35,622 nucleotides of DNA from contig JAUXED010000014.1 of assembly GCA_030618105.1 (NCBI GenBank), positions 1 through 35,622 on the forward strand, in the 5' to 3' direction. The stretch is from Bacteroidota bacterium (GTDB lineage Bacteria > Bacteroidota > Bacteroidia > Bacteroidales > VadinHA17). Positions 10,437 through 28,040 of this stretch are shown one piece after another (the stretch's first letter is position 1; each line of letters opens with the position of its first letter). The translations under genes and the position numbers were made by a program. Below the pieces are notes generated by a model. The model was not told the origin of the DNA and did no database searches. It worked only from the letters and a program-made list of their open reading frames with translations.

Positions 10437-10484
10437 GCTCCCCTCGGAGTCCGAGACTACTACAGTTCGGGCTCCGGGTTATTG
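10437..10484 (+). repeat. Hairpin repeat, copy 1 (CTCGGAGTCCGA stem)
   Basis: The 5' arm CTCGGAGTCCGA (10443-10454) pairs with TCGGGCTCCGGG (10467-10478) over 12 bp with two G-T wobbles, loop of 12 bases, followed by GTTATTGAAAAAAA. A second copy with the same left arm and the same GTTATTG tail lies at 16510-16551. Here it stands between two convergent operons and may also act as a transcription end. Confidence 0.8.
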
Positions 10485-10520: not shown

Positions 10521-11255
10521 CTACTTCCTTAAAGCCGCTTTTGTAAAGAGATATTCCGGAATTTCTTTATCAAATTCAATTTCATCAATGATAAATTCTG
10601 TTCCGTCACCTTTTTTAAGCATATCTTTAAAAATAATTTTCTTTGGATACCAGCGATTATCAATTTTTGTGATATCAAAAAGCTCCATTCTTTTTAATAG
10701 CTTTCCGCTTTTTGCATACAGCTCTTCTTTTAATGGAATATAGCGAACTTTATCAACCCAAACTTTACGGATTTGATAATTTACTTCAGCAGTTTTTGCC
10801 TGTAGTTCAACAATCCAGCAATCTCGTTCATCAATAACTTCAGAGCCAATTACCCCTGCATCATAATCTTCAAGCAATTCAACGTTATCCATCATATCTT
10901 CATAAGAAAGATCAGATCCCATTAATGATTGTTTGAGCATATGCCCTGATATTTGAATTGTTCTGTCAGAACCTGGTGAATATATCCAAAGCTTATCTTC
11001 CAGCTTAAGCATCTTGGTGCCTTTTTCTCGAGCAGGAGCAAGATATTCTGTAAATGCCTTTTCATCACCAATTCCCCAGGTTTTAGCTTCAATAGTTCGG
11101 GTTTGTCGCGCTCCATGAATTAACATTTTAGAAGTAGAAATGGTGGTTTTGGATGCCATGTTTTCATCGATTTTTTCCAGGATCTCTTTTCCTGTTGGTT
11201 CCTGAGCCCAGATGATTGTTGGGATCAGCAATATTATTAATATTAATCTTTTCAT
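10521..11255 (-). CDS. LolA-like outer-membrane lipoprotein-sorting family protein
   Basis: The product resembles the periplasmic LolA-type half-barrel proteins annotated as outer membrane lipoprotein-sorting protein. These carry acyl chains across the periplasm. The chosen start at 11255 gives MKRLILIILLIPTIIWAQ, a good signal peptide; an ATG six codons upstream (11273) would add charged residues. The mature part (about 227 residues) has GTKMLKLEDKLWIYSPGSDRTIQISGHMLKQSLMGSDLSYEDMM, characteristic of this family, then strands and W-Y-P-K-K near the end. It is the last gene of an operon with two permeases, an ABC ATPase, an outer-membrane barrel and a TetR regulator, so it is likely the periplasmic shuttle of that export system. 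Confidence 0.85.
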   Translation of the reverse strand: MKRLILIILLIPTIIWAQEPTGKEILEKIDENMASKTTISTSKMLIHGARQTRTIEAKTWGIGDEKAFTEYLAPAREKGTKMLKLEDKLWIYSPGSDRTIQISGHMLKQSLMGSDLSYEDMMDNVELLEDYDAGVIGSEVIDERDCWIVELQAKTAEVNYQIRKVWVDKVRYIPLKEELYAKSGKLLKRMELFDITKIDNRWYPKKIIFKDMLKKGDGTEFIIDEIEFDKEIPEYLFTKAALRK

Positions 11256-11280
11256 CGTTTTATATTTTATCATTTATGTG

Positions 11281-11362
11281 TTACAAGATTCAGGATTCAG
11301 GATTCAAGATCCAAGACTCAACTTTCTCACTCAATCTTGTTTCTTGTATCTTGATACTTGCA
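11281..11362. repeat. CAAGATTCAGGATT-type phrase repeat between permease and LolA-like gene
   Basis: The gap holds repeated words ATTCAGG, ATTCAAGAT, CAAGACTC on one side and CAATCTTGTTTCTTGTATCTTG on the other. The two halves are loosely inverted: ACAAGAT (11283-11289) pairs with ATCTTGT (11334-11340). It may fold when transcribed and could modulate expression of the last operon gene. Confidence 0.55.
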
Positions 11363-11368
11363 TCTCAT

Positions 11369-12643
11369 TTATGTTTCCAATTCTTTGAATAACGAAGCAG
11401 TTTTACGTTTATATATTCCAATACCCGAAAGCATGGTTCCTAGTACAACAGAAAACAACCCGGGAATAAAACCCAGATAGTATGCAGGAGTTGTAATATT
11501 TGCCCTGAAAACACTTGGTATCATCATCTTTGAACTTTTCATCATATCGCCAATATCTATTCCAACCTCCTGAATCCAATATGAGAAACCAAGTCCTATT
11601 AACGTTCCAAAAAATGAACCTACAATTCCAATTAATATAGCTTCATAGATCATTGACCGGTAAATATGTCCTTTTTCTTCACCAATTGCCAAACGAACAC
11701 CTACCTCACCGTATCGTCTTAATCCTCCAATTAATCCAGTATTCCACAATACAATAGACATAGCAAGTATAAAAACGGCAACAATTATACCAACGAAACT
11801 ATCTACGTAGTCAAAATACCCAGCCATAATAGAATCATTTTTTAACCTGGTCATTACAGGAGAAAACTCATCATTAGGATCTGAGTACTTATCATTGAAA
11901 GTATTTTCAACATTCATAGCTTCTATATCATCATAATTAGGTGAATCTAAAAATCCCAGAATTTCACCACATGCATCATTCATATCCATAGCATTTTGTA
12001 CACCGGTAATATCAGCAATCATGCCACTTCTGTCCATCATTTGCACTCCGAATTCAATGGTGCCTGCAACAGTAAAATTCTGAATTGACATGCCGCCATA
12101 CATTGTTGAAGTAATTAACGTGACGGTTCCTCCGGGTTTAACCTCCAGTTTATTGGCAAATTCATCACTGATTAACACTTCATTTGGCTTTTCCGGTAAA
12201 CGTCCTTTTCTTAATGAACTTCTTATATTTAATCTGTCAATTTCTTCGCTATTTTCAGATATGAGATCAACAGCTATTCCGGCTACTATGCCTTGCTTTT
12301 TAGTTTCTCCGTTTTCGTCAGGAGTATCTAATAAACCACCAAAGTTTATTCGTTGAACAAATTCCATGGTTGGGTAGTCTATCTGCAGGTTACTTATTAA
12401 GTCATTTATTTCTAATAGTGCAAGATCATTGGGCACCTGATTTTTATTTTCAGCATAGGCATGAGTCATTATTTTTACATGGCCTGAAGTATATTTTGCC
12501 GAAAATTCAATCATATCACCCAAAACACCTGTGATATAACAATGTAATAGCACAGTAAGTGAAACACCTGCAGTAACAACCAGAATTGGTAGTAAACTGC
12601 GATTCCGGTCTCTTAATAATCCTTTAAATAAAAAACGTATCAT
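11369..12643 (-). CDS. ABC transporter permease, FtsX/LolC/MacB type (second permease)
   Basis: A 424-residue inner-membrane protein with the LolC/LolE/MacB layout: one N-terminal membrane helix (LLPILVVTAGVSLTVLLHCYI), a large periplasmic domain (about residues 45-285), then three helices (FVGIIVAVFILAMSIVLWN; the IYEAILIGIVGSFFGTLIGL region; the LGFIPGLFSVVLGTMLSGI region). The cytosolic loop GGLRRYGEVGVRLAIGEEKGHIYRSMIYEA is the FtsX-type coupling segment that meets the ATPase. Its start overlaps the stop of the preceding permease by 4 bp (ATGA), so the two are translationally coupled. These permeases act by mechanotransmission on substrates in the outer leaflet or periplasm. Confidence 0.9.
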   Translation of the reverse strand: MIRFLFKGLLRDRNRSLLPILVVTAGVSLTVLLHCYITGVLGDMIEFSAKYTSGHVKIMTHAYAENKNQVPNDLALLEINDLISNLQIDYPTMEFVQRINFGGLLDTPDENGETKKQGIVAGIAVDLISENSEEIDRLNIRSSLRKGRLPEKPNEVLISDEFANKLEVKPGGTVTLITSTMYGGMSIQNFTVAGTIEFGVQMMDRSGMIADITGVQNAMDMNDACGEILGFLDSPNYDDIEAMNVENTFNDKYSDPNDEFSPVMTRLKNDSIMAGYFDYVDSFVGIIVAVFILAMSIVLWNTGLIGGLRRYGEVGVRLAIGEEKGHIYRSMIYEAILIGIVGSFFGTLIGLGFSYWIQEVGIDIGDMMKSSKMMIPSVFRANITTPAYYLGFIPGLFSVVLGTMLSGIGIYKRKTASLFKELET

Positions 12644-13812
12644 TGTATTTTTCCTTTAATAGCGTCAGTAGGTTTCATTTTAGAAATTTTACGGGCTGGC
12701 AGATAACTAACGATCAAAGTAATTACAAAAACAAGTAATGAAGTTCCAATGATTAAGCCAGCTCCATAAACCGGATAAATAGTTTCTGCTATCGCAATGC
12801 CGAAATCATCCGTTCCGGCAGGCATGGTCATTCCGATAGACATTAACCAGAGAAGCAGTGGTGTCCCAAAAATTGCAATGAATACAACAGCTAATATAGC
12901 ATGCATTGCTCCTTCAACTGTAAAAAGACTAACAACCTGTCTGCGGGTCATTCCCATAGCTATATAAGTTCCAATTTCTTTTTGTCTTCTGAAAATGGAT
13001 AGCACTTGAGTGTCAAAAATTGCTAACATTGCCAAAAGCATTAGAATAACATATATAAAGGATCCTCCCACTTTTTTCATTTTCATCATCTCATTCATTT
13101 CAGTCATTAAGAAATCATAGTCTTTATATTCCCATCCGGAAACAGTTTCATTTATTTCAAAATCCTCTCCGATGATAAACATAGTAGCTTCATCAGGTGC
13201 TTGCATCATTTCCCGGAGCTTTTCGATATGGATATACATTTGTCCGGCATCTACATTAGGAACATTGCAATTAAAAACCTTTACAATTTTCACTTCAGTT
13301 GCATCAAAAGTCCCATTTATATCTCTCCATCTAATTGTAGTTACATCACCTTCTATAAGCTTACAGTTTTTAGCCATTCGTCGTCCAATAACGACAGGTA
13401 TTTCTTCAGATTCAATATTCAATTTTGCGCTTGGTATCGCGATAACTTTTTGATCAGGAATCATTCCTTTCAGAAGCATGCTTTGAATTCTTCCATCGGG
13501 ATAAACTGAAGCTTGTGAAATTAATATAGGAGTTATTACTCCATCAGAAATTGCTTTTTGTAATACTTCAGGAATTTTAGCATGACTTTCTTCAAAAGTA
13601 AAGAAATCATAAGGATCGTAATTCTGGTGCCAGTATTGGCCATTTCCCACTTCCCAGGCTTGCATATCTCTGTTTGCCTGGTAATTCCATCCGTCAAGAA
13701 TTCCATAATGCCAGATCATCATGAACAGGACAAATGCCAATACAATTACATTGAGCCAGGTTCGTAATCCTGCACCAACCAGATTTCGCCAGGCTAATTT
13801 TAATGATAACAT
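12640..13812 (-). CDS. ABC transporter permease, FtsX/LolE/MacB type (first permease)
   Basis: A 390-residue partner permease with the same design: N-terminal helix (VIVLAFVLFMMIWHYGI), periplasmic domain (about 40-240), then three helices (FIYVILMLLAMLAIFD; a MHAILAVVFIAIFGTPLLLWL segment; a IIGTSLLVFVITLIVSYL segment). The loop IFRRQKEIGTYIAMGMTRRQVVSLFTVEGA is the classic FtsX coupling helix region, and the C-terminus ends with SYLPARKISKMKPTDAIKG, typical for LolC/E-like proteins. It starts 17 bp after the ATPase gene. Two different permeases side by side mean a heterodimeric, LolCDE-like transporter rather than a MacB homodimer. Confidence 0.9.
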   Translation of the reverse strand: MLSLKLAWRNLVGAGLRTWLNVIVLAFVLFMMIWHYGILDGWNYQANRDMQAWEVGNGQYWHQNYDPYDFFTFEESHAKIPEVLQKAISDGVITPILISQASVYPDGRIQSMLLKGMIPDQKVIAIPSAKLNIESEEIPVVIGRRMAKNCKLIEGDVTTIRWRDINGTFDATEVKIVKVFNCNVPNVDAGQMYIHIEKLREMMQAPDEATMFIIGEDFEINETVSGWEYKDYDFLMTEMNEMMKMKKVGGSFIYVILMLLAMLAIFDTQVLSIFRRQKEIGTYIAMGMTRRQVVSLFTVEGAMHAILAVVFIAIFGTPLLLWLMSIGMTMPAGTDDFGIAIAETIYPVYGAGLIIGTSLLVFVITLIVSYLPARKISKMKPTDAIKGKIQ

Positions 13813-13829
13813 AATTTTGTCCTCCTTAG

Positions 13830-14528
13830 CTAATTGGTTATAACATCATCTGCACTTACTTTGCCATCTTCAATAAGAATTTTTCTCTTCAAATACTTGA
13901 TTACTTTATCATCGTGAGTGGCAAAAATGAATGTAGTTTGCAAATCTTTGTTGAGATTTTCCATGGTTTGAAGAATGTGATGCGAGTTCTCAGAATCTAA
14001 ATTTGCAGTAGGTTCGTCAGCCAGCACCAATTCCGGTTTTTTAACCATAGCACGGGCAATAGCAACACGTTGACATTCTCCACCTGAAAGTTGTGCCGGT
14101 CTGGATTTCATTTTATCAGTTAATCCTAACCATTCCAGGGAATCCATCACTGCCTTTTTCTTTTCAGCTGCAGATAATTTCAGTAGTAATAATGGAAACT
14201 CAACGTTTTCATAAACTGTATAAACAGGTAGTAAATTAAAAGTCTGGAAAATAAATCCCATATGTTTTCTTCGTAACAGGGCTGCCTGTTTATGATTTAA
14301 TTCCCTGATCGATTTCCCCAATACAACGACAGAGCCTTCAGTAGGGATGTCGAGGGAACCGATAATGTTCAGTAATGTGGTTTTTCCTGAACCACTGGGT
14401 CCAACGATACCGGCAAATTCACCGGTGCCAAATGTCAGATCTATACCATTAAGGGCTGTAAACTCACCTTTACCAATAGGGTACCGTTTAATCAAATCCT
14501 TAACAGTGACGATTTCGGAATTTTCCAT
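13830..14528 (-). CDS. ABC transporter ATP-binding protein (LolD/MacB type)
   Basis: The 232-residue ATPase has all motor motifs: Walker A GPSGSGKTT (about residues 43-51), Q-loop FIFQTFNLLP, signature LSGGECQRVAIARAM, Walker B LVLADEPTANLD, and switch His in FATHDDKV. The sequence is of the LolD/MacB/FtsE subclass that drives FtsX-type permeases. The neighbours fit: two such permeases directly downstream. It lies 87 bp after the outer-membrane barrel gene. Confidence 0.95.
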   Translation of the reverse strand: MENSEIVTVKDLIKRYPIGKGEFTALNGIDLTFGTGEFAGIVGPSGSGKTTLLNIIGSLDIPTEGSVVVLGKSIRELNHKQAALLRRKHMGFIFQTFNLLPVYTVYENVEFPLLLLKLSAAEKKKAVMDSLEWLGLTDKMKSRPAQLSGGECQRVAIARAMVKKPELVLADEPTANLDSENSHHILQTMENLNKDLQTTFIFATHDDKVIKYLKRKILIEDGKVSADDVITN

Positions 14529-14615
14529 ATTTCTTCTTTTTTGTTATTTGTTATTTTTACTCCATATCTTCAGTGATGCAATAGAATTTTGATTGCAGCC
14601 TTGTTGTAATAAATA

Positions 14616-15764
14616 TCAATGATTAAATACAGCCATTAAATATAATCCTTTCCCGGTAAAAAAAGTATTTTCCCGGAGGTTCTGGTAGATCTGAAATTTC
14701 TCCGGATTCCAGAAGCCCATTACATATAGGCTCCAATTATCAAACTGCCACTGCCAGTTAATGAACCGGTAAATGTCTTTGTTATCCCAGTCATAATACA
14801 TGATTGCTGAAATGTTATGTATGATGCTTAAAGGGTAATTAATTGATAATGCTGAAAATGAGGCGCCTTCTCCTCCTCCAAAGGCTTTATCAGAAACATC
14901 AAATACAAAGAATTCATTCATTACATTCAAGCCATTTCCCAACTCAAAAGTATAATCCCATCCCAGATTAAAAAACCTTTTGTATACATTTTCAGTAAGA
15001 TCAAGATCCTGGTGGGTGATTACTCCTTCGAACCATAATCCAATCTCTATATCCCATTTACCATCTATTCCGAACCTGTTTTCCGGAACGATATCTTTCG
15101 AGGAGACAGGTTCAGAAAAGTCAACATTTTTAAGGTTAGCTTGTCTGTGGTGCCAGGTAGCTGCAATTTCTCCGGTGTATAAGGGAACCTGGATACGGCC
15201 ACCGTATTCAACCTTTTTTTTGTGTGATGGAATGAATTCCCACCCTTTGGTGTCTTTATTACCATACAGCCCCCAAAGCCATATATTGGAATTGTTAAGA
15301 AAATAGTAACGGGTCAGAACACCGTATACACCATCGGTCAGCTGCAGAGGATCACGCGGATCGATACGATCGAACCACATTAAAGGCCTCAGAAAAGTTG
15401 CAGAACCAAAGTTAATCTTTTGAAGACCGGCACGTACTTCAAAACGTGGGGTTGTAAAACGCAACCACATTCTGTACGGTTTTATTTTGCCTCCGGTATT
15501 AATACTATCAAACGGATAAATGTCTCCTGAACCATATGAATTGAAGGATAATTCCGAACCAAAACTAAATTTTTCCTGAAAATTTTTCTCCAGGGAAAAC
15601 TCGGGGATATAACGGAGCCCGATTTGAGATTGAAAGGATTGTCCCGGGTTTGTTACCATCCACCCTGCCAGTTGTCCGGATAGTTCAACCTGTTGTGATA
15701 ATCCTTGCGAATACTTAAATAGTAAAACAAAGGTTACCAGGGTAATAATTCTAAAACCATACAT
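14616..15764 (-). CDS. Outer-membrane beta-barrel protein of the ABC/LolA-like operon
   Basis: The 382-residue protein has a signal peptide (MYGFRIITLVTFVLLF..., cleavage near GLSQQ) and a mature part made of alternating amphipathic strands rich in Trp, Tyr and Gly, as in porin-like barrels. Segments such as RMWLRFTTPRFEVRAGLQKINFGSA and FDRIDPRDPLQ resemble those of outer-membrane proteins found with lipid or organic-solute export systems. No plug domain or TonB box was seen. It lies between the tetR gene and the ABC genes, so it is likely the outer-membrane component of the same envelope system. The exact family cannot be named from the sequence alone. Confidence 0.8.
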   Translation of the reverse strand: MYGFRIITLVTFVLLFKYSQGLSQQVELSGQLAGWMVTNPGQSFQSQIGLRYIPEFSLEKNFQEKFSFGSELSFNSYGSGDIYPFDSINTGGKIKPYRMWLRFTTPRFEVRAGLQKINFGSATFLRPLMWFDRIDPRDPLQLTDGVYGVLTRYYFLNNSNIWLWGLYGNKDTKGWEFIPSHKKKVEYGGRIQVPLYTGEIAATWHHRQANLKNVDFSEPVSSKDIVPENRFGIDGKWDIEIGLWFEGVITHQDLDLTENVYKRFFNLGWDYTFELGNGLNVMNEFFVFDVSDKAFGGGEGASFSALSINYPLSIIHNISAIMYYDWDNKDIYRFINWQWQFDNWSLYVMGFWNPEKFQIYQNLRENTFFTGKGLYLMAVFNH

Positions 15765-15810
15765 TTCTTTGTTTTTATTTCATTTCAGGCATCCCAAATT
15801 TTAGTTCATT

Positions 15811-16401
15811 TTAGTCATTTCTTTCATATGGGAATATCCCGTAAAAAAAGAAATTTGTTAATTCCATAACCATATCCTGAGGTGTTTCATATAATTTTGC
15901 TAATTCTTCATCCTTCGCCATGCTCATCATTTGATTTAGAAAATATAAAATAAATTCCGGCTTAATGGTTTGGCGGATATCTCCCCGTTTTTGTGCATCG
16001 ATGTAATCGTTAAGTATTATTTGGATATTGTCATGAATTTTTTGATTGAGGAAATCCAGCAATTCCGGATCAGCATTTTTATAGTAATCTGCATAAAATG
16101 CCTGACTCATCTCATCGGTTTGTTCCATTTTTAATTGAATGGATTGTTTTACTTTTTCAGAAAATGAAACATCCTGACTCATTATGTTCTTGTATTTTGC
16201 CAGGGCTTCAGAAGTTATTTTATTAATAATATATTTAACAAGCTCCGGCTTATTACTGAAATGCTTATAAAAAGTCATTTTGCTCACATTGGCTTCACGA
16301 CAAATCTCCTCAATAGAGACACGTTTTATTCCGAATTTCCAGAATAACTCTTTTGCTGTGGCAACTATTTGTTGAAACTTCTGATTATCAATATCTTTCA
16401 T
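15811..16401 (-). CDS. TetR/AcrR-family transcriptional regulator
   Basis: The 196-residue protein has a typical N-terminal helix-turn-helix (residues about 8-55: IVATAKELFWKFGIKRVSIEEICREANVSKMTFYKHFSNKPELV), followed by an all-helical ligand-binding domain. The first gene of a - strand operon, it lies 46 bp ahead of the barrel gene. A 62-bp dyad begins 11 bp upstream of its start codon, which is where an autoregulatory operator would be. It probably represses the transporter operon until a lipophilic ligand binds; the ligand is unknown. Confidence 0.93.
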   Translation of the reverse strand: MKDIDNQKFQQIVATAKELFWKFGIKRVSIEEICREANVSKMTFYKHFSNKPELVKYIINKITSEALAKYKNIMSQDVSFSEKVKQSIQLKMEQTDEMSQAFYADYYKNADPELLDFLNQKIHDNIQIILNDYIDAQKRGDIRQTIKPEFILYFLNQMMSMAKDEELAKLYETPQDMVMELTNFFFYGIFPYERND

Positions 16402-16411
16402 GGATTTTACA

Positions 16412-16473
16412 AATATTGTATTAATATACGATATGCATTATATTATACATATATCGTACAAATATACAATATT
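16412..16473. promoter_or_regulatory. 62-bp dyad, likely operator of the TetR regulator
   Basis: Outer arms AATATTGTAT (16412-16421) and ATACAATATT (16464-16473) are perfect 10-bp inverted repeats; inner arms TACGATAT (16427-16434) and ATATCGTA (16451-16458) are perfect 8-bp inverted repeats. Both pairs share one centre at 16442.5, so they form a single symmetrical element. On the - strand the promoter-like word TATATTTG (16459-16466, TAnnTTTG) lies within it. Position and symmetry fit a double TetR operator overlapping the promoter. Confidence 0.65.
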
Positions 16474-16509: not shown

Positions 16510-16551
16510 GCTCTCCTCGGAGTCCGACTCAAGTTCGAGCTCCGAGTTATT
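16510..16551 (+). repeat. Hairpin repeat, copy 2 (CTCGGAGTCCGA stem)
   Basis: CTCGGAGTCCGA (16516-16527) pairs with TCGAGCTCCGAG (16535-16546) with one mismatch and one wobble; the loop has 7 bases. The left arm and the GTTATTG tail match the copy at 10437-10484, in the same orientation. It lies between the tetR promoter region and the end of the small membrane-protein gene. Confidence 0.8.
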
Positions 16552-16563
16552 GTTACCCGGATT

Positions 16564-19636: not shown

Positions 19637-20974
19637 ATGAAAACAAAAATATTGATTTTTGCGCTTATTGCCTTGGTAAGTTATTCTTATGGGCAGGAAA
19701 AGGTTATCACCGGTAAAAGTAAAGTGAAAAAACTCTTCGTGGAACAGGAAGAAATAAAAAAATTATTACCAAACCTTGAGATCAAAGAACAAGCATTTTC
19801 TGATAAGAATAGTAATCAGATAATTGATGCTTACGAGACCAGTGAAATCACGTTCAAAATTGTTAATTCGGGTGAAGGGTTAGCAAGCGGTGTACGGGTT
19901 AAATTATCACTTACCAACCCGGACACAAAGGGATTAACGTATGATGAAATTATTAATGTCGGGGATATTAAAACCAAAGAATCGAAAGATATTACCATCC
20001 CGATTATTGCCACCAGGGAAATTCAAAGTGGCACAGTTCTTTTTAATATTGAAGTTCTGGAAAAGAACGGGTTAGATGCACATCCAATTGCAATGAGAAT
20101 TGAAACACAGGAGTATACACCGGAAGTTACTGTAGTTGAGGGAATAAAGCAGGAGGAAGAGGTTGTTCCGGAAACAGCATACAGGGGAGTTGGCGATCCG
20201 TTAAAAGGACTTAATGTTTCGAAAGAAAGATCGGAAATGAGAATTGGCGATTATTTTGCCCTGATCATTGGCATTGATGATTATAGTGGAACATGGGCAC
20301 CGCTTAGTAATGCAGTAGGTGATGCAAAAGCCATCAAAGAAATGTTGGAATCGAAATATAAATTCGATCACTTCCGCACACTCTATAACAGGCTTGCAAC
20401 ACGTGAAAATATAATAAGGGAACTCGAATGGTTAGTCCGTAATGTTAAAGAAGAGGATAATGTGTTTATTTATTATTCGGGACATGGGGAGTTTAAGAAA
20501 GAATATAATAAAGGATATTGGGTTCCGGCAGATGCTACTGAAGAATCAACATTTCAATATATTTCGAACAATGACCTGCAAACATTCCTTTCATCAATTA
20601 AGTCAAAGCATACCCTCCTTATTTCAGATGCCTGTTTCAGCGGAGATATTTTCAGGGGGAAAACCATCTCAATTCCTTTCGAAGATACTGAACGATATTA
20701 CCGTGATGTAAATGCCAAACTATCACGCCAGGCAATTACCTCGGGGGGTATTGAACCGGTTATGGATGGGGGAAGAGAAGGACATTCGGTTTTTGCCTAT
20801 TATATTCTTAAAAGCCTGAGAAACAACAATAAACGATTCTTCGATGCTTTTTCCTTGTATAATGATATACGTATCCCGGTAGTCAATAATTCAATTCAAT
20901 CGCCAATTTTGCAACCCATTAAAAATACCGGGGACGAAGGAGGACAATTCTTATTTATCAGAAAAGACTTTTAA
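19637..20974 (+). CDS. Exported caspase-family (C14) peptidase
   Basis: The 445-residue protein has a signal peptide (MKTKILIFALIALVSYSYGQ) and two parts. Residues about 45-160 are a CARDB/NEW1-like beta-sandwich that opens with DKNSNQIIDAYE (56-67), which fits a 12-residue EF-hand-type calcium loop (D1, N3, N5, D9, E12). Residues 201-445 are a caspase-fold peptidase: FALIIGIDDY strand, YYSGHGE with catalytic His283 and LLISDACFSG with catalytic Cys333, so the dyad is intact. The later GHSVFAYYILKSL segment is standard. Bacterial caspase-fold enzymes cleave after Arg/Lys or Asp depending on the pocket; specificity is not evident here. The signal peptide puts it in the periplasm or outside. 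A strong terminator follows. Confidence 0.92.
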   Translation: MKTKILIFALIALVSYSYGQEKVITGKSKVKKLFVEQEEIKKLLPNLEIKEQAFSDKNSNQIIDAYETSEITFKIVNSGEGLASGVRVKLSLTNPDTKGLTYDEIINVGDIKTKESKDITIPIIATREIQSGTVLFNIEVLEKNGLDAHPIAMRIETQEYTPEVTVVEGIKQEEEVVPETAYRGVGDPLKGLNVSKERSEMRIGDYFALIIGIDDYSGTWAPLSNAVGDAKAIKEMLESKYKFDHFRTLYNRLATRENIIRELEWLVRNVKEEDNVFIYYSGHGEFKKEYNKGYWVPADATEESTFQYISNNDLQTFLSSIKSKHTLLISDACFSGDIFRGKTISIPFEDTERYYRDVNAKLSRQAITSGGIEPVMDGGREGHSVFAYYILKSLRNNNKRFFDAFSLYNDIRIPVVNNSIQSPILQPIKNTGDEGGQFLFIRKDF

Positions 20975-20995
20975 TATAGCAAACTGATACAAATA

Positions 20996-21033
20996 AAAAA
21001 TCTCAAAACTACAGAGTTTTGAGATTTTTTTTT
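20996..21033 (+). terminator. Intrinsic terminator after the caspase gene
   Basis: A perfect 15-bp stem, AAAAATCTCAAAACT (20996-21010) with AGTTTTGAGATTTTT (21015-21029), closes a 4-base loop and continues into an unbroken T run to 21033. It ends 22 bp after the caspase stop, so it should close that transcript; the propeller gene then needs its own promoter in the 27 bp left before its ATG, or read-through. Confidence 0.92.
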
Positions 21034-21059
21034 CTATATTTCATCTTAATTCTAATAAA

Positions 21060-24000
21060 ATGAAAAGAGCATTATTGATTTTAATGTCAGTTGTATATAT
21101 TTCTGTCCCTGATGTTTCTTCCCAGATAAATAATTTCAAGTACTATTCGATTGAAGATGGGTTGCCCGTTTCTACTGTATTAACAATGATACAGGATTCA
21201 AGGGGTTATCTATGGCTTGGTACTCAAGGGGGAGGAGTAAGCCGGTTTGACGGTTACAATTTTGTCAATTTCAATACTGAAAATGGGCTCGCAGATAATA
21301 CTATAAGAACTATTCTGGAGGATAGCAAAGGGAATTTATGGTTTGGAACATACGATGGAATTAGTTTTTATGATGGGCATTTATTTCGCACAATCAACAA
21401 AGATGATGGTTTATCCGGAACCCTGGTTGTGAAGATTTATGAAGATAAACAAAACAATATATGGGCAGGCACGGACGAAGGTTTAAATAAGGTTGAATTT
21501 ATAAATAATTATGATTCAGTTAATATTAAAACTTATTCATATATAGATGGTTTAAGTTACAATTTAATATTTGATATTTATGAAGACAGGTATGAACGAT
21601 TATGGTTGGCATTTCATGGTGGAGGTATAAATATTCTAACTTTTTCAGACAGTTCAGGATTACAGGTAGATAAATTATTTCGAGGAACCATCCCGAGTGA
21701 TATTATTTTATCCATTGAAGAAGATAAAGAAGGAAACCTATGGTTTGGCACGTTTGATGAAGGAGTATTTAAGATTGAAGATTTTACCGATTCAAGTCTG
21801 GGAAAAATAAAAACTTTTAATATAAATAACGGATTCCCCGATAACACTGTCTGGGATATTCTCTCAGATAACGATGGAAATATTTGGTTTAGTACCGATA
21901 AAGCAGGAATTGTAAAATATAATCAGGATCAATTCAGGAATTATTCCATTGAACAGGGTTTCCCTGATAAACAGGTGCTATGTCTTTTTCAGGATAGCGA
22001 GGAAAATATCTGGACGGGTACATTTAGCAGTGGTATATGCAGGTTAATGGGAGAACATTTTTCTCACTATACCGAAGAACAAGGTCTGACTAATAGTCAA
22101 ATATACAATATTGCTCAGGATGTAAAAGGCAATTACTGGCTGGCTTCACATGGCGCTGGATTAATAAATCTAACTTTTCATAACGATAAACCTTTTTTTA
22201 AATCATATACTGTTGACAATGGATTACCCGATAACTATATAAATTCAATATATATTACAGCAGACAATAATATATGGCTGGCAACCAAAGAAAATGGTAT
22301 TTCAAAATTTGACGGAAAAAGGTTCATCAACTATACAGAAGAAAATCATCTGGTAAATGACCATGTAAACTGTATTATGGTTGACTCCAGGGGGCAGGTC
22401 TGGAGTGGCACCGTTGGAGGAATAAGCTTGTTAAACGATAAGGGTTTTTTTACAATTAATGAAGAAAGCTGGGAACTTCCAAATAATGAAGTCCAGACTA
22501 TTATCGAGGATAAGAAAGGGAATATATGGGTTGGTACTCTTGGTGGTTTAGCTAAGTTTGAAGGTAATGCGATGACTACTTTTGATGAAGAAGAAGGATT
22601 ATATTATAAGGAAATTTATGCACTTGCCGAAGATGCACATGGAAATATATGGATTGGAACAAATAGTGGCGGCCTGTTTAAATATGAAACAAGTTCGCGG
22701 GAAGAACAACCAATTAAATTAATTGCAGACAATACCATACTCAGGTCCACGAATATTGTATCTCTTGTATTCCAGAACGATAGTGTACTTCTTGTTGGAA
22801 CCAATGTGGGATTTGATAAACTTGTTTTAGATAAAAAGGGTGAGATAATAAGTGCAAAAAATTATTATAAATCAAATGGCTTTATCGGAATGGAGAATAA
22901 TCTAAATTCCATTCTTAAAGATAATAAAGGGAATATATGGTTTGGAACTGTTAAGGGAATTACATGCTATAAACCTGAACTGGAGAAAATTAATACTAAA
23001 CCACCTATAAATCATTTAACGGAACTGGATCTCCAGTTTAAAAATATTGACTGGACTGAACATGCCGATAGTTTGTATCCTTGGACTTTGTTACCCCAGA
23101 CACTCAGGTTACCGCATAGTGAAAACCATCTGACTTTTAAATGGACAGGAATATCCTTGAGCAATCCTGAAAATGTCAGATATAAATATAAGCTTGATCC
23201 GGTAGATAAAGACTGGTCACCATCCCGGCAGCTATCTGAACAAACATATTCGGGAATAAGACCGGGTGATTATTCATTTTTGGTTTTGTCTGAAAATGAA
23301 AACGGGATTTGGAATGAAGAACCTCTTACATTTGATTTTACCATTAAGCCCCCATTCTATCAAACATGGTGGTTTATTTCTATAATGGTTGTTTTGGTGA
23401 TTATTGCCATTATTATCTATATCAAGTATCGTGAAAAGCAGTTAATTCGTGAAAAACGGATACTCGAACAGAAAGTAACTGAACGAACTGTTGAGATACG
23501 GAAACAAAAAACTGAGATCGAGGATCAAAAAGATATCATTGAACAGAAAAATATTGATATTACAGATAGTATCAGGTATGCAAAACGAATTCAGGATGCA
23601 ATATTGCCATCTTTACAAGTGATTAAGGATAATCTGAAAGATTCATTTGTGCTTTACCTGCCAAAAGATATTGTTAGCGGAGATTTTTACTGGGTGAAAG
23701 AAAAAAATGAATCACTTGTTATCATAGCTGCAGATTGTACCGGTCATGGTGTTCCCGGTGCTTTTATGAGTATGCTTGGTATATCCTTTTTAAATGAAAT
23801 AGTTGAAAATGATAATATTACCTCCCCCGAGAAAATTTTAAATATTCTAAGGGAAAATGTTATAACTGCTCTTAGACAAAGAGGTCTGGAAACTGAATCA
23901 AAGGATGGAATGGATATGGCTGTTTGCTCTTATAATAGAAAATTAAAACGCTTGTCGTTTGCAGGAGCAAATAATCCGCTCTACATAGTAAGGGATAAAG

Positions 24001-24305
24001 AACTGATACAAACCAGGGGAAACCGAATGCCGGTTGCCATTCATGTTAAAATGGATGATTTTACAAAATATGATATCCCAATTGAGACAGGTGATTCTCT
24101 TTATATGTTTTCCGATGGTTATGTTGATCAGTTTGGAGGCCCGGAAGGAAAAAAATTCAAGAACAAAAAATTCAAACAATTATTGATCAATATACAGGAT
24201 GAGAATATGATAACCCAGAAGGAAATTCTCAATAAAACCATTACTGAATGGCGTGGAGAACATGAACAAATTGATGATATTGTTGTTTTAGGTTTTAAAG
24301 TTTAA
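21060..24305 (+). CDS. Propeller sensor with SpoIIE-type PP2C phosphatase output
   Basis: The 1081-residue protein has a signal peptide, then about a dozen two-component-regulator-propeller repeats (units like DS-x-G-x-LWLGT-x-GGVSRFDG and EDGLP-x-N) up to about residue 670, a Y_Y_Y domain (about 680-765), one membrane helix (about 770-792, WWFISIMVVLVIIAIIIYI), a coiled coil (about 793-845) and a SpoIIE/PP2C domain (about 860-1081). Metal-binding aspartates are visible in SGDFYWV, AADCTGHGVPGAFMS, DGMDMAVC and FSDGYVDQ. In this family the propeller senses an extracellular ligand and the phosphatase dephosphorylates an anti-sigma-factor antagonist in the cytoplasm. There is no histidine kinase domain. 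It follows the caspase gene but is separated by a strong terminator. Confidence 0.93.
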   Translation: MKRALLILMSVVYISVPDVSSQINNFKYYSIEDGLPVSTVLTMIQDSRGYLWLGTQGGGVSRFDGYNFVNFNTENGLADNTIRTILEDSKGNLWFGTYDGISFYDGHLFRTINKDDGLSGTLVVKIYEDKQNNIWAGTDEGLNKVEFINNYDSVNIKTYSYIDGLSYNLIFDIYEDRYERLWLAFHGGGINILTFSDSSGLQVDKLFRGTIPSDIILSIEEDKEGNLWFGTFDEGVFKIEDFTDSSLGKIKTFNINNGFPDNTVWDILSDNDGNIWFSTDKAGIVKYNQDQFRNYSIEQGFPDKQVLCLFQDSEENIWTGTFSSGICRLMGEHFSHYTEEQGLTNSQIYNIAQDVKGNYWLASHGAGLINLTFHNDKPFFKSYTVDNGLPDNYINSIYITADNNIWLATKENGISKFDGKRFINYTEENHLVNDHVNCIMVDSRGQVWSGTVGGISLLNDKGFFTINEESWELPNNEVQTIIEDKKGNIWVGTLGGLAKFEGNAMTTFDEEEGLYYKEIYALAEDAHGNIWIGTNSGGLFKYETSSREEQPIKLIADNTILRSTNIVSLVFQNDSVLLVGTNVGFDKLVLDKKGEIISAKNYYKSNGFIGMENNLNSILKDNKGNIWFGTVKGITCYKPELEKINTKPPINHLTELDLQFKNIDWTEHADSLYPWTLLPQTLRLPHSENHLTFKWTGISLSNPENVRYKYKLDPVDKDWSPSRQLSEQTYSGIRPGDYSFLVLSENENGIWNEEPLTFDFTIKPPFYQTWWFISIMVVLVIIAIIIYIKYREKQLIREKRILEQKVTERTVEIRKQKTEIEDQKDIIEQKNIDITDSIRYAKRIQDAILPSLQVIKDNLKDSFVLYLPKDIVSGDFYWVKEKNESLVIIAADCTGHGVPGAFMSMLGISFLNEIVENDNITSPEKILNILRENVITALRQRGLETESKDGMDMAVCSYNRKLKRLSFAGANNPLYIVRDKELIQTRGNRMPVAIHVKMDDFTKYDIPIETGDSLYMFSDGYVDQFGGPEGKKFKNKKFKQLLINIQDENMITQKEILNKTITEWRGEHEQIDDIVVLGFKV

Positions 24306-26660: not shown

Positions 26661-28040
26661 TCAATTCTCTGTTGTTGCGATAAAGAGTTTCCCTGTTTCC
26701 GGTTTTTGTTTTTCAACCACAACTTTGGTTTTCCATCTCCCGGTAAGGTAATAGAGGTATGAGAGAACGGCGCCTGCCAGCCAGCCAATAGGAAATGCCC
26801 ACCATATACCTGTTTCATCAATACTTTTTGACAGTAAATATGCAACAGGAACTCTAATAAACCAGAGGGATAATAGTGTAATAAACATGGGAATAAGTGT
26901 ATCACCTGCACCCCGGAGGGCACCATTTATAGAAAACATAATGGAGAAAATGATATAAAATGAACCGACGATCATCAGGTATTCTTTTCCAATCCGTATT
27001 ACCTCAGGATCAGGGGTAAAGAGCACCATCAGGAATTTCCCAAATACAATTACCAGGATACTTACCGATACTGATACCAGAGATGACATTAAGATAGTTT
27101 CTTTCAGCCCTTTTGTTGCCCGGTGGGTTTTACCTGCTCCCAGGTTCTGACCAACAAAAGTTGCGAGGGCGGCAGCAAAGTTCATTGCAGGTAAGGTTGC
27201 AATTGAATTGATCCGCAGTACAACAGAATACGCGGCTATTACATTGGTGCCAAAAAGATTTACAATTGTCAGGATAGCCATCATTCCCAGAGAGACAAAG
27301 GTATGTTGTATCCCGGTAGGCAGTCCGATCCTGAAACTTTTTTTAAACAAATCCTTATCAAAAGTCAGGTTCTTCAGCCGAAACCTTATGATCTTATGTG
27401 TGGAATTGAGATAAATGATGGCAGAAATAAATGCTATGCCTTGCGACAGAATAGTTGCAATAGCCACTCCTTTGATACCCCATTTGAAAACCAGTACGAA
27501 CAGCAGGTCAAGACCAATGTTCAACAAAGTTGAAATAATAAGAAAATACATAGGGGTCTTTGAGTCGCCCAACCCGCGTAAAATCGCACTGATGCCATTG
27601 AAGCCAAAAAAAACGATAATTCCCGCAAAATATATGTCCAGATAAGCCTTTGCTTGTGGTATAATTTCTTCAGGTAGTTGAATAATCCGTAATATTTGCT
27701 CAGTGAATGTTATCCCGATAATTGTGACAAGAAGAGATGCGAAAAACAGAAAGATAAGCAATGTATCGATCATTCTTCGCACTGTTTGATAATCCCTGGC
27801 GCCAAAAAACTGTGCAATTACAATAGTTGAACCTGAAGCGATTCCAATTATCAGGGCAATCATTGTAAAAATTATAGGGAAAGATGCTCCCACGGCTGCA
27901 AGAGCTTCTTTTCCGATAAAATTTCCGACAATTATACTGTCAACAATGTTATAAAGTTGCTGAAAAACATTTCCCATCAACATTGGAAGAGCAAACTGAA
28001 AAATAAGTTTTCGTTCACTGCCGTTAGTGAGATCTTTCAT
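26661..28040 (-). CDS. MATE family efflux transporter
   Basis: A 459-residue inner-membrane protein with about 12 hydrophobic helices in two similar halves. It starts with LTNGSERKLIFQFALPMLMGNVFQQLYNIVDSIIVGNFIGKEALAAVG, the standard opening of the DinF/NorM-like MATE subgroup, and the second half repeats the pattern (SFRIGLPTGIQHTFVSLGMMAILTIVNLFG). These transporters expel cationic or aromatic compounds in exchange for Na+ or H+. Its ATG is only 8 bp after the tnaA stop, so the two are almost surely one transcript; export of an indole-related compound is a reasonable guess, not shown by the sequence. Confidence 0.94.
   Translation of the reverse strand: MKDLTNGSERKLIFQFALPMLMGNVFQQLYNIVDSIIVGNFIGKEALAAVGASFPIIFTMIALIIGIASGSTIVIAQFFGARDYQTVRRMIDTLLIFLFFASLLVTIIGITFTEQILRIIQLPEEIIPQAKAYLDIYFAGIIVFFGFNGISAILRGLGDSKTPMYFLIISTLLNIGLDLLFVLVFKWGIKGVAIATILSQGIAFISAIIYLNSTHKIIRFRLKNLTFDKDLFKKSFRIGLPTGIQHTFVSLGMMAILTIVNLFGTNVIAAYSVVLRINSIATLPAMNFAAALATFVGQNLGAGKTHRATKGLKETILMSSLVSVSVSILVIVFGKFLMVLFTPDPEVIRIGKEYLMIVGSFYIIFSIMFSINGALRGAGDTLIPMFITLLSLWFIRVPVAYLLSKSIDETGIWWAFPIGWLAGAVLSYLYYLTGRWKTKVVVEKQKPETGKLFIATTEN

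Follow-up and report, generated by a model that had tools for sequence, protein, structure and literature searches.

The operon considered here belongs to a kind of system that is already known, since AmeABCD, with a resistance-nodulation-division (RND) motor, and the Borrelia cluster BBJ23-BBJ29, with an ATP-binding cassette (ABC) motor and another barrel, have both been described in the accessible parts of the respective reports. It comprises six genes of a Bacteroidota bacterium of the order Bacteroidales (assembly GCA_030618105.1, 2.39 Mb in 184 contigs) and lies on contig JAUXED010000014.1 (C20), the whole of which, 35,622 nucleotides, is the window that we analysed. According to the accessible text on Castellaniella defragrans, AmeABCD consists of the HAE3-RND pump AmeD, the DUF1302 barrel AmeA, AmeB of the DUF1329/LolA superfamily, and AmeC, and its deletion lowered monoterpene tolerance and increased the accumulation of Nile Red (PMC6394551). 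BBJ23-BBJ29 joins a MacB/LolCDE-type ABC transporter, a LolA-like protein and an outer-membrane barrel, for which export of a non-polar ligand is proposed in the available portion of the report (PMC13078400). Loci of Porphyromonas gingivalis (PG1178-PG1181) and Prevotella intermedia, compared by description from partial texts, likewise hold a TetR regulator, a LolA-like protein and a motor, and are strongly regulated (PMC10434189, PMC10470040).

The features of the operon are the following.

10521-11273, reverse strand: LolA-like periplasmic shuttle, 250 aa, with a signal-peptide-like start and the motif GSDLSYED (PF17131, 1.3e-62)
11369-12643, reverse strand: permease A, FtsX/MacB-type and LolE-leaning, 424 aa (PF02687, FtsX, and PF12704, MacB_PCD)
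12640-13812, reverse strand: permease B, FtsX-type and LolC-leaning, 390 aa, with RWRDxxGxFDA at the position of the LolC Hook
13830-14528, reverse strand: ABC ATPase of LolD/FtsE/MacB type, 232 aa (PF00005, 7.4e-36)
14616-15764, reverse strand: outer-membrane beta-barrel with an OprD/AlgE-like fold, 382 aa, 18 predicted strands, a predicted remote DUF1302 homologue
15811-16401, reverse strand: TetR-family regulator, 196 aa (PF00440, TetR_N, 1e-13)
16427-16458: predicted TetR operator, palindrome TACGA-N22-TCGTA, conserved in the upstream regions of relatives
16412-16473: larger inverted repeat enclosing the operator, with 23-nt arms that are 83% complementary

In order of transcription the six open reading frames (ORFs, 10521-16401) encode TetR, barrel, ATPase, the two FtsX permeases and the LolA-like protein, separated by gaps of 46, 87, 17, -4 and 95 bases, the -4 gap being the ATGA overlap of permease B with permease A. 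These coordinates agree with a sequence-only reading of the window, which had described six reverse-strand genes with short gaps and ATGA coupling and had ended the system at 16473; this end proved to be the outer end of the inverted repeat upstream of tetR, inside which the conserved site lies. The two permeases match the FtsX Pfam family at 3.7e-15 and 4.5e-14, and among the matches listed (for the ATPase, the best 25 of 204) no curated NCBIfam cut-off was reached by any of the six proteins.

The predicted plan of the operon is that of an HAE3-RND/LolA-fold/DUF1302 exporter of the AmeABCD type in which the RND pump is replaced by a LolCDE-fold ABC motor, and as far as our literature search reaches, this combination of an AmeABCD-type plan with such a motor and a DUF1302-related barrel appears to be new. 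With AmeABCD, as the accessible text presents it, the operon shares a barrel of the DUF1302 kind, a LolA-superfamily periplasmic protein and an inner-membrane motor in one cassette. The motor of AmeABCD is a proton-driven RND pump, whereas here it is made of ABC_tran and FtsX proteins with no HAE3-RND pump at the locus, and the operon has a TetR regulator, which is not mentioned in the available text on AmeABCD. The loci of the oral Bacteroidota, again from the texts in part, use an RND (MMPL) motor, with ABC ATP-binding proteins as well in P. intermedia and as PG1175-PG1176. The Borrelia cluster differs, in the portion of the report available, by a single permease (a proposed homodimer), an Omp85-type barrel, two TPR proteins and the absence of TetR from its seven genes (PMC13078400), while in the operon the barrel model ranks OprD/AlgE first, no TPR match was found and two permeases are present among six genes. 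Housekeeping LolCDE-LolA has the same motor fold and shuttle fold and also two different permeases, but the scores of the operon proteins are below cut-off, the Hook region is shorter and the operon has its own barrel and regulator. MacAB-TolC has in common with it a type VII ABC export motor and three compartments, but no MacA adaptor or TolC is found among the six genes, the ATPase is separate from two permeases, and a soluble shuttle stands in place of a channel. Our search of the literature found no description of an operon with ABC, LolA-like and DUF1302-like components, which is weak evidence, subscription journals and bioRxiv being thinly covered. The earlier statement that no Bacteroidota ABC version had been described therefore holds as far as this search reaches and was drawn too narrowly, since several phyla carry the operon and, in the accessible part of its report, an ABC cluster of Borrelia is described (PMC13078400).

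The ATPase scored 239.6 bits against the LolD model TIGR02211 and did not reach its cut-off of 307.75, which is reached by no ATPase of the genome, the best being one of 262.8 bits on contig C87. Permeases B and A, with 45.1 and 24.7 bits against the LolC/E model TIGR02212, did not reach its cut-off of 362, which is strict for this phylum since the genome's own housekeeping-type permease on contig C104 scores just 227.6 bits. Permease profiles compared with the PDB recovered LolF, LolC, LolE and MacB, permease A matching LolF (2.4e-10), LolE (6.3e-6) and LolC (4.1e-4) and permease B matching LolC (3.4e-8), with LolE absent at E up to 0.01. The AlphaFold model of permease B (predicted local distance difference test, pLDDT, 81.2) was nearest to LolE and LolC, which fill the first nine rows with Z from 24.7 to 22.3 and which the fold alone cannot separate (LolE: Z 24.7, root mean square deviation, rmsd, 4.0 over 344 residues; MacB: Z 17.6), and Foldseek on this model gave an E-value of 7.5e-18. 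The type VII ABC fold of LolCDE and MacB was found in the permease B model, whose periplasmic domain lies at about residues 56-235, and is indicated for permease A by PF02687 and PF12704. By sequence, the motor is a LolCDE-type (type VII) ABC transporter with two different permeases and an ATPase.

In Escherichia coli the LolC Hook (aa 167-179) recruits LolA and, in the part of the report available, is modelled as conserved across diverse proteobacteria (PMC10865981). When permease B was aligned with E. coli LolC by hidden Markov model, five Hook residues were absent, and the site reads R161 W162 R163 D164 x x G167 x F169 D170 A171, invariant in all 21 of the aligned relatives. We infer that the LolA-like protein may dock on this RWRDxxGxFDA hairpin, which would stand in for the LolC Hook.

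Two further observations concern the permeases of relatives. Between loci L090 and L132 the TetR, barrel, ATPase and LolA-like proteins are 95-97% identical, against 79% for permease B and 84% for permease A, which would fit a joint exchange of the two permeases. Loci L071, L129 and L134 have two copies of permease B inside the operon.

For the barrel, no Pfam or NCBIfam match was obtained at E up to 0.1, and its sequence profile had no match to solved structures at E up to 1, so that the protein is placed by fold and profile comparison only. An AlphaFold model was built from an alignment of 23 relatives, from which L069 (barrel ORF interrupted by TAG) and L074 (partial) were left out; it has 18 strands and a mean pLDDT of 81.9, with low-confidence residues at 126-133, within the most conserved motif. 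By VIA-align 2 the model was closest to OprD/Occ-type porins (Z 20.7, rmsd 3.5, 298 residues aligned), and this best match to solved outer-membrane barrels supports the original barrel call; the alginate exporter AlgE scored less, at Z up to 18.7. With Foldseek alone, general porins come out on top, and the fold therefore does not settle the exact subfamily. The profile of these barrels aligned with that of the DUF1302 barrels of the order at an E-value of 6.1e-11 over 268 columns, the latter built from 20 of 23 places including the two of the same genome, while two reversed profiles gave 0.12 and 0.16 and eight column shuffles gave at least 0.027. On this comparison of profiles the barrel is remotely homologous to those DUF1302 barrels whose companions are HAE3-like RND pumps and LolA-like proteins.

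Such RND sets occur in the same genome, where two further strong PF17131 proteins, on contigs C144 and C53, each come with an RND pump and a DUF1302 barrel. On C144 the pump, shuttle and barrel are adjacent; on C53 the barrel lies 6.7 kb past the LolA-like gene, within a run of genes on the same strand. The best match of both pumps is the HAE3 model TIGR00921, at 293 and 320 bits respectively, short of the cut-off of 351.9. Besides the operon, this one genome therefore holds two RND versions and thus three shuttle-and-barrel sets, two with an RND and one with an ABC motor. The sequence-only reading had pointed to analogous clusters with RND pumps in proteobacteria, an analogy that was borne out more strongly than it was put, the RND versions being in the very same genome and their barrels homologous. 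Across the order, 20 of 21 foreign DUF1302 places were fetched, and 18 of these 20 loci combine the barrel with an RND pump and a PF17131 protein on one strand; the exceptions are L218, cut at a contig end, and L221, which has neither pump nor shuttle.

The neighbourhood of the C53 set (locus L016, 667-16598, one strand) also holds genes for TetR, a short-chain dehydrogenase, acyltransferases, a radical SAM protein, patatins, a FakA-like protein, DegV and a PlsY-type glycerol-3-phosphate acyltransferase, together with the RND pump, LolA-like and DUF1302 barrel genes, and may be a cluster for the synthesis and export of a lipid. For this sister RND system the acyltransferase, patatin, FakA-like, DegV and PlsY-type genes around it make a lipid plausible as cargo.

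The shuttle scored 18.7 bits against the LolA model NF053572 (cut-off 100), was below the NCBIfam cut-offs for LolA1 and LolA3, and matched DUF1329 weakly (0.014, below that family's cut-off). A LolA1 of the genome's own is encoded on contig C36 (178.7 bits, cut-off 100) in addition to the LolC/E-type permease on C104, so the operon genes are not the genome's only Lol homologues, and the six-gene set is, on this sequence evidence, separate from housekeeping Lol, as had been supposed. The motif G[ST]D-x-[ST]Y[ED][ED] is present in 32 of 33 PF17131 proteins, ABC-linked and DUF1302-linked together, and absent from the genome's LolA1. In a quick tree the ABC-linked shuttles group in a single clade, to which none of the 13 DUF1302-linked ones belongs (Shimodaira-Hasegawa-like approximate likelihood ratio test, SH-aLRT, 100); the outgroup branch is very long, and the tree therefore gives no direction for the exchange of motor between RND and ABC. 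PF17131 matches were also seen in the archaea Methanocaldococcus jannaschii, Haloferax volcanii and Methanosarcina acetivorans, and since these carriers are without this kind of outer membrane, the family is not tied to outer-membrane delivery.

Using the barrel as query we collected 105 loci (24 from the order, 80 from named genomes and the window), the 80 being the best-scoring of at least 559 confirmed stretches from a pattern scan of named genomes, so that the sample is uneven; at least three loci are counted twice (L051/L101, L052/L097 and L054/L122). Barrel, ATPase, permease B, permease A and LolA-like gene occur in this order on one strand at 75 of the 105 loci, a count that speaks for the other four genes as the loci were chosen by the barrel, and two more (L061 and L099) have all five genes rearranged. 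At 26 loci the record ends less than 7 kb after the barrel. Five structural genes in order on one strand at so many loci exclude a chance grouping, and the prediction of a complete inner-to-outer-membrane set whose gene order is kept in relatives was thereby supported.

A close TetR ORF is present at 72 of the 105 loci (at L099 in front of the ATPase and not the barrel), and at five further ones a divergent TetR stands directly before the barrel. Upstream of tetR in the window, none of 300 shuffles gave an inverted repeat as good as the one with 23-nt arms. In relatives, a spacing of 27 bases between TACGA and TCGTA is seen 26 times and the second most frequent spacing 4 times; among 55 non-redundant upstream regions from 70 TetR loci, TACGA-N22-TCGTA is exact in 24 and found with at most one mismatch in 42, against at most 1 and 2 in 100 shuffles. 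In the window this palindrome is the sole copy, and in the genome one of two. Of 15 genomes searched with a strict form of the site, 6 have a single copy each, always before this operon, and the other 9, that of the window included, have none. The palindrome is a predicted operator of a self-regulated TetR operon, and the operator-like site is conserved across phyla.

We consider it somewhat more likely than not that the operon is a TetR-repressed, single-operon trans-envelope exporter of a lipophilic small molecule or lipid. Binding of a ligand to TetR would lift repression; the LolCDE-like motor would then use ATP hydrolysis to pull hydrophobic cargo out of the inner membrane, from its outer leaflet, with permease B docking the LolA-like protein through the short RWRDxxGxFDA hairpin that replaces the Hook of LolC; once loaded, the shuttle would cross the periplasm and hand its cargo to the barrel, to be passed on into the outer membrane or through it. 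Moving a lipophile outward is the likeliest job in view of what such parts do in relatives, namely recruitment of LolA to LolCDE, lipid binding by LolA folds and export of hydrophobes by AmeABCD, as given in the available portions of the reports.

Several points weigh against this interpretation. No TetR ORF lies directly upstream of the barrel at 28 of the 105 loci, some of them cut by record ends, so the regulator is not universal, and the loose ten-base form of the operator is nonspecific, with 1-4 places per genome in 11 genomes against 0-11 for its backwards control; being no better than that control, it cannot define a regulon. At L103 and L127 the permeases and the shuttle have been lost although the downstream sequence continues (2 of the 105), and an AmeC-like gene, present in AmeABCD, is found nowhere among the six. 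In hhalign the barrel profile did not match the C144 barrel taken singly (E 0.28) and gave 4e-5 with the C53 barrel taken singly; a firm link to DUF1302 required two profiles. Both cargo and direction of transport we infer only, and as OprD-like porins mostly serve uptake, the fold of the barrel leaves the direction unfixed.

The reading that best survives beside that of lipophile export is broad efflux of toxic hydrophobes such as solvents, bile-like compounds or antibiotics, with TetR as sensor, as opposed to export of a lipid made by the cell. It is the small-molecule half of the reading that we favour, with which its likelihood overlaps, and we give it a substantial chance, though below even. 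The operator-like site before the operon, whose strict form is found nowhere else in its six genomes, and the precedent of AmeABCD argue for it, as does the clustering of flanking ORFs at the 105 loci, in which the best of the 30 families listed, unannotated, was found in 11 loci. Since the operator is local and no flanking family is common, inducible export of a hydrophobe that is foreign or made under stress is favoured over a constant route for one lipid. Of the earlier interpretation the inner-to-outer-membrane route is supported, and its dedication to one special lipid or lipoprotein is conjectural. The sister C53 set, which sits among lipid genes, favours an endogenous lipid, at least there, and such a cargo is for this reason conceivable for the operon as well.

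A second, specialised lipoprotein route, in which motor and shuttle move a subset of lipoproteins that the barrel displays or receives, is unlikely. The LolCDE-like fold of the motor and the LolA-like shuttle would suit it, and the authors of the Borrelia study propose lipoproteins as a possible cargo of BBJ23-BBJ29, in the part of the text available (PMC13078400). It is made less likely chiefly by the shortened Hook region of permease B, with its five missing residues, and by the nearest relatives found for shuttle and barrel, which are those of RND loci; further, no other gene family accompanies the operon at more than 11 of the 105 loci, in a clustering without a search aimed at LolB-type or lipoprotein genes. 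Moreover, control by TetR fits a small ligand better than a lipoprotein cargo.

Export of haem, porphyrin or an iron-linked compound, that is, a job like that of HrtBA with an outer-membrane route added, appears improbable. The haem exporter HrtB is among the matches of the permease B model, with a Z of 19.6, but LolE and LolC score higher, at up to 24.7. In P. gingivalis and P. intermedia, loci with TetR, MMPL, LolA-like and hypothetical genes, some with ABC ATP-binding proteins, rose 13- to 223-fold when iron was short (PMC10434189), and the P. gingivalis TetR, MMPL, LolA-like and hypothetical genes were lower by log2 7.4 to 8.1 in excess hemin (PMC10470040), both as given in the accessible parts of these reports. 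These RND relatives in oral Bacteroidota are strongly iron-regulated, which makes the link worth testing, but they use an RND pump and rise in shortage, not in excess. Equally improbable is a retrograde or uptake route, by which the barrel would admit a hydrophobe and the shuttle and ABC proteins would import it or restore lipid asymmetry: the best structural match of the barrel is to OprD-family porins, which are mostly uptake channels, but the top solved relatives of the permeases, LolCDE, HrtBA and MacB, work outward. AmeABCD, too, exports, in the available text (PMC6394551).

Returning to export of a lipophilic cargo, the operon and the RND versions suggest that one route of shuttle and barrel can be driven by ABC as well as by RND motors, and open the question of how one soluble carrier couples to two unrelated motors. 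Many PF17131 proteins, which are labelled 'outer membrane lipoprotein-sorting protein', may instead shuttle for dedicated exporters of hydrophobes or lipids. Tentatively, and with slightly less than an even chance of being right, we would extend this to a phylum-crossing class of soluble-shuttle exporters with an exchangeable motor, in which a LolA-like shuttle and a DUF1302/OprD-type barrel, often with TetR, work with either an RND pump or a heterodimeric LolCDE-type ABC motor that has a purpose-made docking hairpin, and which spread from lineage to lineage as a self-regulated cassette. The conserved operator and the predicted docking motif are immediately testable handles, and a deposited culture, Persicobacter psychrovividus NBRC 101262, carries the operon.

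Of 149 genomes of the order, 27 have the barrel, that of the window included; 25 of the matches are strong, and the two weak ones (L075 and L076) were dropped as they have no partner genes. A sample of 395 genomes from the phylum gave 12 with the barrel, again counting that of the window. By record label the carriers are Bacteroidota, Aminicenantes, KSB1, Calditrichota and Ignavibacteria, with single records from Gemmatimonadota, Desulfococcaceae, Chlorobiota, Zixibacteria (the decayed L127) and Clostridiales (perhaps misbinned). In a permease tree of 60 rows, of which 18 stay ungrouped, the starred branches require the label to change at least 4 times for Bacteroidota and 3 times for Ignavibacteriota, which hints at transfer between lineages, although bins may contain stray contigs. 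Pairwise identities among 11 loci indicate that tetR and barrel change faster and that at least one lineage has exchanged the permease pair; one recombination break separating a TetR/barrel/ATPase half from a permease/LolA-like half was considered and dropped, no clean break being seen in these identities.

In Persicobacter the full six-gene operon is found on plasmid records of 1.07 and 1.58 Mb (L223 and L224), where no gene is entered at the operon site in the collection's table. A plasmid of Vibrio campbellii LJC015 (L225, 3618-10227) encodes an ATPase, one FtsX permease, a protein of PF17131 and one of 442 aa for which Pfam gave no match; genes for a histidine kinase and a LytTR response regulator come next. 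This single-permease relative was rejected as the same system, since the 442-aa protein matched two barrel profiles unconvincingly (E 0.58 and 0.0036).

Within the operon, the gap between permease A and the LolA-like gene (11276-11368) holds a degenerate inverted repeat with 35-nt arms (71%). In relatives, one family of small ORFs (10 ORFs at 8 loci) lies inside the operon in 8 cases; these could be four-helix-bundle genes of the 23S-intervening type. Imperfect hairpin-forming repeats in the same orientation flank the operon at 10437-10484 (48 bp) and 16510-16552 (43 bp); their 17-base core has just these two copies genome-wide at up to one mismatch, and their 12-base core is in none of the fetched loci of other genomes. 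They may be cassette ends or paired terminator-like hairpins. Elsewhere in the window, a caspase-domain (Peptidase_C14) gene is followed by one for a 1081-aa Reg_prop/Y_Y_Y/SpoIIE protein on the forward strand (19637-24305), and at 26661-26926 a YicC-like ORF (start 26926) overlaps a MatE ORF (end 26661) by 266 bases on the same strand; as the YicC match starts at residue 108, the true start of the YicC-like gene is probably further in.

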